Positions 9,407 to 21,526 of a stretch of DNA of 21,526 nt are shown here, one piece after another. The DNA is taken from positions 1-21,526 of the IMG/VR virus record IMGVR_UViG_3300029448_000519, one strand, 5' to 3'. The notes under the pieces are model-generated. The model saw only the letters and a program-made list of their open reading frames with translations. It was not told the DNA's origin and did not search any database. Position numbers and translations under genes: made by a program. Position 1 is the stretch's first letter. Each line of letters opens with the position of its first letter. Origin of the DNA: a virus.

Positions 9407-11045
9407 TTACTTAGAGCTACGCAAAGCAGCCTCTAGAACTACCCCTTTTGCACGAAAACAAGCTAGGGGTCAGGCCTCTGCTGTCGCTGATGTTTTTTTT
9501 AACTCACCTCTTGACAACCCCTTTGGTTCTTTACCTATGACGGCTTATGCGGGTTCAGAAGGTATTCCAATGTCTCCTCCTCGTAAGACGCAAGTAGATG
9601 CTATGGCTCCTCTTAACTTTGCTGCTGAAGAGTTAACTACTCCTGCTAACGCTCCTTTTGTTGCTGCTCCTCGTATGCTAGCAAGGGCTGGTAATGCTTT
9701 TGTTGAAAACATCCCTACAGAACTCAAGGGTTTTTATTCAGGTAGTCCGGTTGAAAAATACAAGGGAATATCTGAAGGGATGCTACAGAGTGCTAAAGGC
9801 ACTGCCAGAGAACTTGTAGACCCTACTGAGATGGCTACTCGACGCGAGTTTGGTACAGGATCAGTTAGACGCGCAGAAATGCAACAGACGGCAGACAGAG
9901 GAATAACAGAGGGTAATCCAAAAGCTTCAGCTTTCTTACGCGCTCAATCCACAGGCAAAGCAGTAGGCGAAGGCGACACGATTATTGAAGCGTATCCTGT
10001 GTTAAAAAGAGATGCGGTGCAGGTAGGCCGTCTGGAAAATACTCAAGATGTTCAACGGGCGTTGACTAAAGACAATCCAGACATAGACCAAGATATTGTA
10101 GACAGGGCAACAAACCATTTATATGCTCAACAAGGTAAACAAGGGCAGTTAGTAACAAGAAACAGATCAACCTCCAGCACAAATTTAGGCCCTGAAGCCA
10201 TAGGTCAAGCCACGACTTCTCCTGTCGCCCTTAGAACACTGTACTCCCCGAAGAGTATGGAAAGTTGGTACGACGTGGTAGGAGACAACCCTAGTACAGA
10301 ACAATGGAAAGGGATGTTAGGCTTGTTTAGCGCCCTTGATAGAGACTTTTTGCTACAAAACAAGAAGGTATTTGGTGAAAAACCTTCTGCTGCTGTTGTG
10401 TGGAGTGCTTATTGGAAAGGCAAGAAGAGAATAAAAGAAGGTAAAAAACTAGGCTCCGACCAGAAAAAGTATATAGACGCTATTGACAATCAAATGAAGA
10501 CCCAAACAGGTCTTAAGAAGTACCTCTCTAAGTTTGTTCCTAACGCTCTTGTCAAGCCCAAAGGCCCGACTAAAGTCAACGAGATGAACGGTAAGCTTGT
10601 GTTGCAACAGTCGTTTAACTCTTCAGCTAAAGACTTAGGCGGTATGAATGCGTTTATCGTAGTAGATCCTAAGAAGGGTGAGTTTTACTCTATGTTGTCT
10701 GACGGTCATGACTTGCTTGGACAAACACCTCCGGGTTTTGAAAACCTTGTAAACGTAGTTCCAATACAGAAGTACAAGATAGGAGCAGGTAAAGAGGCGG
10801 GAGGAGCGAGACCTAAGAAAGAACTAGAGGCTGCTTCGGAAGTTTATGGGGACACTGTGGAACTAGAGAGACGCTCTGGTATTCCTAGACTCAAAAACGA
10901 AAGTGTTTCTGCGTACCAGAAGAGGGTAGCCAGAGACTTCAAAGGAACTGCTACTACTGGAGAGCGTCTCGAGGCGGCTGCTACTGCGGCTATGCCTCTG
11001 TCTGCTGTGGGTATGATGTCGAGGGATGAAGAAAAGGGGCGCTAA
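9396..11045 (+). CDS. Unknown late protein, last of the structural block (549 aa)
   Basis: I do not recognise a family. The start at 9396 is chosen over one at 9339 because GAGGAG lies seven bases before it and the overlap with the preceding gene is only 11 bases. The N-terminal 150 residues are rich in Ala, Pro and Arg and look disordered. A basic central region around residues 260-390 has several Trp and Tyr residues and Lys-rich helices ('WKGKKRIKEGKKLGSDQKKY'). A compact beta region near 400-460 contains 'AFIVVDPKKGEFYSML'. The C-terminus is basic, then Ala-rich. Its position at the end of the late operon, after three ejection-like genes, suggests a virion or packaging-linked protein. The final codons overlap the terminator hairpin of the opposing operon. 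Confidence 0.6.
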   Translation: MSSDYLELRKAASRTTPFARKQARGQASAVADVFFNSPLDNPFGSLPMTAYAGSEGIPMSPPRKTQVDAMAPLNFAAEELTTPANAPFVAAPRMLARAGNAFVENIPTELKGFYSGSPVEKYKGISEGMLQSAKGTARELVDPTEMATRREFGTGSVRRAEMQQTADRGITEGNPKASAFLRAQSTGKAVGEGDTIIEAYPVLKRDAVQVGRLENTQDVQRALTKDNPDIDQDIVDRATNHLYAQQGKQGQLVTRNRSTSSTNLGPEAIGQATTSPVALRTLYSPKSMESWYDVVGDNPSTEQWKGMLGLFSALDRDFLLQNKKVFGEKPSAAVVWSAYWKGKKRIKEGKKLGSDQKKYIDAIDNQMKTQTGLKKYLSKFVPNALVKPKGPTKVNEMNGKLVLQQSFNSSAKDLGGMNAFIVVDPKKGEFYSMLSDGHDLLGQTPPGFENLVNVVPIQKYKIGAGKEAGGARPKKELEAASEVYGDTVELERRSGIPRLKNESVSAYQKRVARDFKGTATTGERLEAAATAAMPLSAVGMMSRDEEKGR

Positions 11046-11052
11046 GGCCCCT
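11028..11052 (-). terminator. Rho-independent terminator for the leftward operon
   Basis: Read leftward, just after the ribonucleotide reductase stop, AGGGGC, loop CTTAGC and GCCCCT form a perfect 6-bp GC-rich stem, followed by TTTTCTTC. The T-run is on the leftward side only, so the direction is clear. The hairpin overlaps the end and stop codon of the rightward gene that finishes at 11045. Confidence 0.6.
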
Positions 11053-20882: not shown

Positions 20883-20930
20883 GTTAACTCACTGCTGGAC
20901 ACTCTAGCGAATGCCCAGCGATTAGTTAAC
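20883..20930. promoter_or_regulatory. Long imperfect hairpin between early genes
   Basis: The arms at 20883-20898 and 20915-20930 are inverted copies matching at 13 of 16 positions, around a 16-base loop. Each arm has GTTAACT at the outer end and CTGG at the inner end (in inverted sense). It occupies most of the 85-base gap between two early genes. There is no T-run on either side, so it is more likely an RNA processing or regulatory site, or a protein site, than a simple terminator. Confidence 0.5.
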
Positions 20931-20933
20931 TCT

Positions 20934-21164
20934 CTATTTTGTGAGGTAGTCAAAGCCTGTAACGTCTATGCCCAATGCCTTGAGCGCTTCCAGCTCTTCG
21001 CTTATCCATCGAGCGTAGAGATCTCGTTGATATCTAACGTCGTCCTTTGCCGACTCCTCTACTTCAAAAACTCTGTCTGTTTCGCAACTGTAACCAGCGT
21101 AAAATGTCATTAGGCAAGAGATGCGATCTGCGATTGTTTTGTCTGTCATAAGAATCATTCTCAT
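20934..21164 (-). CDS. First gene of the leftward early block, unknown (76 aa)
   Basis: Not recognised. A mostly helical, acidic protein ('ADRISCLMTFYAGYSCETDR', then Glu/Asp-rich helices and 'WISEELEALKALGIDVTGF'). Three in-frame ATGs are close together (21164, 21158 and 21149), none with a clear SD. The first directly follows the TAA of a 9-codon leader ORF, so re-initiation could serve it; the start at 21149 gives the more natural N-terminus 'MTDKTIADRI'. Being first after the long non-coding region, it would be among the earliest genes expressed. Confidence 0.65.
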   Translation of the reverse strand: MRMILMTDKTIADRISCLMTFYAGYSCETDRVFEVEESAKDDVRYQRDLYARWISEELEALKALGIDVTGFDYLTK

Positions 21165-21244: not shown

Positions 21245-21324
21245 CAAATAAACTATTGACCGCATTGGTTGACGTGTGCTATTCGCGTGTGCGCGTGTAA
21301 TAGAAGGTAGGCCCAAAGGGACCA

Positions 21325-21526
21325 ACATAAGTCCCCACACTTGTCAACCCATGCAAAACCCATGCCAACTCTGCTCGCTACTACATAAGTCCGCCCATGT
21401 CAACCCATGCAAGACTCGTGCCAACTCTGGCGGCTACCATAGGCCGCGCCCTGTGTCAACTTTTGTTGAAACCCGCGTAAACTAAGGGGTCGGGGGAGGG
21501 GTTGACTTGTGTTTAACTTTTGTAGT
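21325..21526. repeat. Degenerate ~56-bp tandem repeats, at least four units
   Basis: GTCAAC (or its variant TTTAAC in unit four) recurs with its AAC at 21346, 21402, 21458 and 21515, steps of 56, 56 and 57. Units one and two share most of their length: ACATAAGTCC, then GTCAACCCATGCAA, then TGCCAACTCTG. Unit three keeps CATAGGCCG and TGTGTCAACTTTTGT; unit four repeats TGTGTTTAACTTTTGTAG and runs off the window. No spacer-like unrelated sequence lies between units. Confidence 0.75.

Follow-up and report, generated by a model that had tools for sequence, protein, structure and literature searches.

The tandem repeats at the right edge of the window (the whole stretch of DNA analysed here, a virus record of 21526 bases) almost certainly lie in the terminal repeat of a marine phage genome, and each full repeat unit carries, on the minus strand, a perfect sigma-54 -24/-12 element that reads leftward to the early genes. 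We propose, with a probability of about one half, that this array may serve as a set of host-factor-dependent early promoters driven by sigma-54.

The window represents the right part of a phage genome of ~35 kb, and its edge is probably the physical right end of that genome. Positions 21322-21526 almost certainly belong to the right copy of a short direct terminal repeat (DTR), which most likely measures 205 bp with nothing further in the linear molecule; genome-end repeats, one of the candidates put forward in the earlier note, thus proved right for the stretch as a whole. The repeat and its boundaries are as follows.

21322-21526, no strand: DTR, right-end copy, 205 bp, with 21526 as the probable right genome end (from the contig ends of relatives)
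21322-21348, no strand: conserved left DTR boundary, CCAACAYARGYYCMCACACTTGTCAAC, kept in both array types
21492-21526, no strand: conserved right DTR boundary, GGGGGAGGGGTTGAC...TTTTGTAGT (end), near-invariant in 35 loci

Two near-complete relatives carry a repeat at both contig ends, one (G001, 35152 bases) an exact direct repeat of 190 bp and the other (G002, 35799 bases) a repeat of 198/203 bp with a few differences. The right ends of the window, G002 and G001 coincide at TTTTGTAG(T), G001 being one base short, and G002, L283 and L377 all begin at the identical base, CCAACAYARG; with three contigs ending and three starting at the same bases, the genome ends are fixed and not permuted. Some contigs terminate near, and not exactly at, the boundary bases, as expected from assembly, and most read through the DTR because assembly collapses the repeat. 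A cohesive-end (cos) site was considered for the shared end base and dropped, since both ends of two contigs repeat, and an assembly overlap of k-mer size is unlikely given a length of 190-203 bp and the same bases across separate samples. Together, the two boundary motifs mark out 106 distinct predicted DTRs, 149-496 bp long, and the frequent lengths are spaced by 56 (149, 205 and 261; 174-175 and 230-231), a pattern that would be consistent with the gain or loss of whole units. The distance from the right boundary to the start of terS is nearly constant at ~181 bp in the 35 loci, which are those where the boundary continues into AGC(C/T). In G002 (L289/L290), the two repeat copies within one contig are not identical, with several base differences and a 2-base indel, reflecting either population variants joined by assembly or true divergence of the ends. 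At its start, contig L125 carries what seems to be the terS start and promoter in inverted form, which is probably a chimeric contig end.

Within the DTR, the repeats are arranged as follows.

21335-21390, no strand: 56-bp unit 1, full
21391-21446, no strand: 56-bp unit 2, full
21447-21460, no strand: third unit, partial, terminating in the third GTCAAC

The earlier note had described a four-unit array with a 56-bp step; the repeats are real, but they comprise two full units and a partial third, and what had been taken for a fourth unit (about 21512, GTTTAACTTTTG) amounts to a degenerate echo only. GTCAAC starts at 21343, 21399 and 21455 (steps of 56 and 56), CATAAG occurs at 21326 and 21384 and CATAGG at 21438, and Tandem Repeats Finder reported a period of 56 bp, 2.0-2.1 copies and 80-82% matches over 21325-21460. 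The shared blocks named in the note, GTCAAC and CATAAG/CATAGG, are present; it had overlooked GCCAAC (21364 and 21420), which is the repeated element kept most strictly of all. The note had counted a lack of further units beyond the window, together with unconserved GTCAAC spacing in relatives, against its own reading; the units do stop there, in all probability because the genome ends at the window edge, but 56-bp steps recur in relatives.

Read on the minus strand, GCCAAC is the beginning of an element TTGGCAYG-N4-TTGCA, of which each full unit contains one copy.

21408-21424, minus strand: sigma-54-type element 1, TTGGCACGAGTCTTGCA, perfect match; predicted start about 21397, leftward
21352-21368, minus strand: sigma-54-type element 2, TTGGCATGGGTTTTGCA, perfect match, 56 bp from element 1; predicted start about 21341, leftward

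The predicted starts were placed from the -12 spacing, and the chance expectation of the element is 0.003 per shuffled window. The bacterial sigma-54 (RpoN) consensus is YTGGCACG-N4-TTGCW; the sigma-54 identity of the motif was judged against this generally known consensus, and its spacing, variability and direction were measured. The presence of the consensus in the units, its fixed GG and GC included, is a fact of the sequence. When sites in relatives were seeded with TTGGCA alone, TTGCW followed at +12 in 124 of 144 distinct sites, and the logo of these sites showed Y at +6, G at +7 and a variable intervening N4. The sites are confined to the DTR region (it holds 45 of the 46 that 16 family genomes yielded when up to one mismatch was allowed, and a reversed control pattern gave 0 sites), and they face the early arm in 203 of 233 cases within DTRs, their steps in relatives being about 26, 36, 47 and 56 bp. 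Both copies in the window point leftward to the ORF that starts at 21164. These features extend to distant relatives: when the viral collection was scanned for the bare pattern, independently of homology, 21 distant members were recovered (terS 56-79% identical), in which the sites lie 0.4-1.1 kb upstream of the terS motif and 47 of 53 point away from terS. Stretches of DNA common to these members and the window are mostly of 20-27 bp and fall on the two sites, and the direction toward the early arm is kept in the distant members, including some with one detected site. The protein-binding array, another candidate of the earlier note, is a well-supported reading for the units within the DTR. 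Lambda CII sites (TTGC-N6-TTGC) were rejected as the identity of the elements, as their spacing does not fit.

The anatomy of the genome places these elements at the head of the early arm. The structural arm runs rightward to 11045 of the window and the second arm leftward from ~21164 down to 11058, the latter encoding ribonucleotide reductase, nuclease, family A DNA polymerase, primase/helicase and single-strand binding protein.

11035-11052, minus strand: terminator-like hairpin at the meeting point of the two arms, 0.0 expected in shuffles
20937-21164, minus strand: first leftward early ORF, 76 aa, presumed promoter target (ORF map); no PHROG match

The ORF map also bore out the placement of the array in a non-coding stretch ahead of leftward early genes. 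In relatives, the sequence beyond the window edge continues with a terS-like gene, which reads rightward and has an AT-hook motif, and then with an M15 peptidase, terL and portal. Among named phages, Pelagibacter phage HTVC103P has the nearest polymerase (49% identical) and the reductase is 64% identical to that of Roseobacter phage CRP-403; the close relatives are therefore uncultured. We found no terS homologue in named phages, no tRNAs in relatives and no match in a host search with the polymerase against bacterial genomes. Elsewhere in the structural arm, a 12-bp repeat of 21.5 copies (1371-1628 of the window) encodes VVPE within a 908-aa ORF. The early arm contains a 48-nt hairpin (20883-20930 of the window, minus strand; also at 1916 and 2344 of L009 and in L091 and L176), which is present in two copies in some genomes and is kept in about 90 fetched loci despite differing neighbour early genes. 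It shows double-sided compensatory changes (CG/TA, TA/AT, CG/GC and TA/CG), a fold z-score of -4.1 and no Rfam match, and may represent a leader RNA or a signal for processing ahead of an early gene.

The two arms differ in their promoters. On the terS arm, a near-perfect sigma-70 promoter, TTGACT-17-TATACT nearly everywhere, sits ~120 bp inside the left repeat. On the early side, the absence of ordinary leftward promoters, as the earlier note had it, held up: no leftward sigma-70 promoter above chance was found in the stretch or in most relatives, and sigma-70 promoters driving the early arm were rejected. An exception is the clade of L327, L354, L310, L227 and L365, in which a leftward TTGACA-16-TATAAT, perfect or nearly so, stands 70-80 bp beyond the DTR; most of its members have many bidirectional sigma-54-type sites. 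Phage-polymerase promoters, also suggested in the earlier note, were not supported, as a search for single-subunit RNA polymerase that was positive in the T7-like CRP-403 control found none in the 16 family genomes (0/16). A phage-encoded sigma-54 activator (enhancer-binding protein) was likewise found in 0 of these 16 genomes, so that a host activator must be assumed. With neither a sigma-70 promoter nor a phage polymerase nor a phage activator for the early arm, the simplest reading assigns the role of early promoters to the sigma-54-type elements.

Our proposal is a model whereby, in a linear two-armed genome of ~35 kb, the structural arm (terS, M15 peptidase, terL, portal and so on) would start just inside the left repeat and the early/replication arm just inside the right repeat, the two arms converging. 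The 56-bp units would be tandem sigma-54-type promoters, at which host RNA polymerase with sigma-54 would bind the -24/-12 elements, a host enhancer-binding ATPase would open the complex and leftward transcription would enter the early arm; sigma-54 binding, the drive of early transcription and the use of a host activator are inferred. In the linear molecule, the right-end DTR copy alone would be productive, because the left copy, judging from the anatomy, points off the genome end, and the late arm would be driven instead by the strong sigma-70 promoter just inside the left repeat. Several observations count against these early promoters, among them the lack of a phage-encoded activator. Tandem steps of 26-28 bp in relatives are too tight for simultaneous polymerases, facing pairs of sites in unrelated phages suit binding better, and the 21 of 107 DTRs that have DnaA boxes and no sigma-54-type site are also without a clear leftward sigma-70 promoter; the non-identity of the G002 repeat copies was counted on the same side.

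The main rival, which takes up the origin iterons listed in the earlier note and which we regard as somewhat unlikely, holds that the DTR contains the replication origin, with some members using host DnaA boxes and the window-type units being iterons for another initiator whose site resembles that of sigma-54. Among 107 DTRs, sigma-54-type sites occur without any DnaA box in 66, DnaA boxes (TTWTCCACA, 3-11 each) without any sigma-54-type site in 21 and few of both in 19, and one has neither; DnaA boxes thus occur in the same interval in 40 DTRs and are nearly absent elsewhere in the family genomes. Up to 11 perfect boxes were seen within the DTR interval of L117, L125, L108, L044, L104 and others. 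The spacing of the boxes (11-12 and 22 bp), like the steps of the sigma-54-type sites, suggests ordered complexes, a conserved AT-rich stretch lies directly outside the repeat and both arrays could build a protein-DNA complex at the junction of joined ends. Nevertheless, a free N4 between two strict halves is the pattern of sigma-54, the early-arm direction is kept in distant members even with a single detected site and no phage initiator was identified. The first early gene is different in 7 of 8 DnaA-type members, a count confounded by descent.

It is quite unlikely that the arrays are a host-factor sponge, present twice in each genome and amplified as the genome replicates, that titrates sigma-54 (or DnaA) in the course of infection. 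The substitution of one array kind for the other and the phage's lack of an activator gene would agree with such a role, as would the clusters in unrelated phages, but the window holds two sites only, and both spacing and direction are kept, which a sponge would not require. A packaging signal, in which the terminase small subunit would bind the units and the DTR cuts would be defined by them, would explain why they lie inside the DTR and beside terS; we consider it highly improbable, as the array type switches many times on the terS tree (at least several times, the tree being poorly resolved), within groups of near-identical terS. Because near-identical terS stands beside either array type, the array is not what the terminase recognises; its recognition site more likely lies within the conserved boundaries, whose two flanking motifs are kept in both array types. 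The copy number of the units varies among relatives, as a functionless tandem duplication by slippage would predict, but this explanation is hardly credible in view of the strict core with a free spacer, the single direction, the confinement to the DTR and the conservation in distant members.

Clusters of sigma-54-type sites were also observed in unrelated phages (L394, L399, L400, L403, L453, L465, L476 and L493-L495), with up to 22 sites, often in facing pairs 19-22 bp apart and with tandem steps near 26-28, 36, 46 and 55 bp. Simple promoters do not explain the facing pairs, and a phage-encoded sigma-54 DNA-binding domain was not found in the phages that bear them. None of seven named phages examined had such clusters, and a match that suggested CW02 as a carrier was spurious. 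We tentatively suggest, as a possibility rather than an expectation, that arrays of sigma-54 sites are a widespread, undescribed control feature of phages, which would recruit or trap the host's sigma-54 polymerase at ordered arrays, located in this family in the DTR and interchangeable with DnaA arrays. Terminal repeats are usually seen as by-products of packaging; here, the repeat would carry a modular host-factor control array, in which sigma-54-type sites and DnaA boxes replace one another with no change of ends or terminase. Were sigma-54 to drive the early genes, infection would be coupled to a host regulator dependent on an activated ATPase, an unusual arrangement for an early promoter of a phage, and rpoN-bearing hosts would be hinted at. 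The clusters in unrelated phages suggest a wider phenomenon that is directly testable.

Our search of the literature, made without preprints and most subscription journals and hence not proof of absence, found no published report of sigma-54 promoters or arrays in phages. The general plan of the genome has parallels. Cobaviruses have a linear genome of ~40 kb with a short DTR and two convergent arms with a terminator between them (PMC6775973), and one of these Zobellviridae, Lentibacter phage vB_LenP_ICBM2, resembles the window phage in its short DTR (159 bp), in its convergent arms and terminator and in a class II ribonucleotide reductase (63% identical); in contrast, its DTR has neither a sigma-54-type nor a DnaA array, and its terminase genes do not adjoin the DTR. 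Pseudomonas phage tf has a 186-bp DTR and two converging transcription units, with sigma-70 promoters predicted on both sides (PMC3517423). The phages of the LUZ24/PaP3/tf type share the short DTR and the packaging genes at the head of the structural arm, but host sigma-70 promoters are predicted on both of their arms, whereas the window phage has them on the structural arm only. Origins with DnaA boxes are matched by the relatives with 3-11 boxes in the same interval, and not by the window, which has none. Compared with bacterial sigma-54 promoters, the window phage differs in its fixed-step tandem arrays within a terminal repeat and in having no activator gene, and it is alike in all strict positions, in the N4 spacer and in the 12-bp step between the halves.
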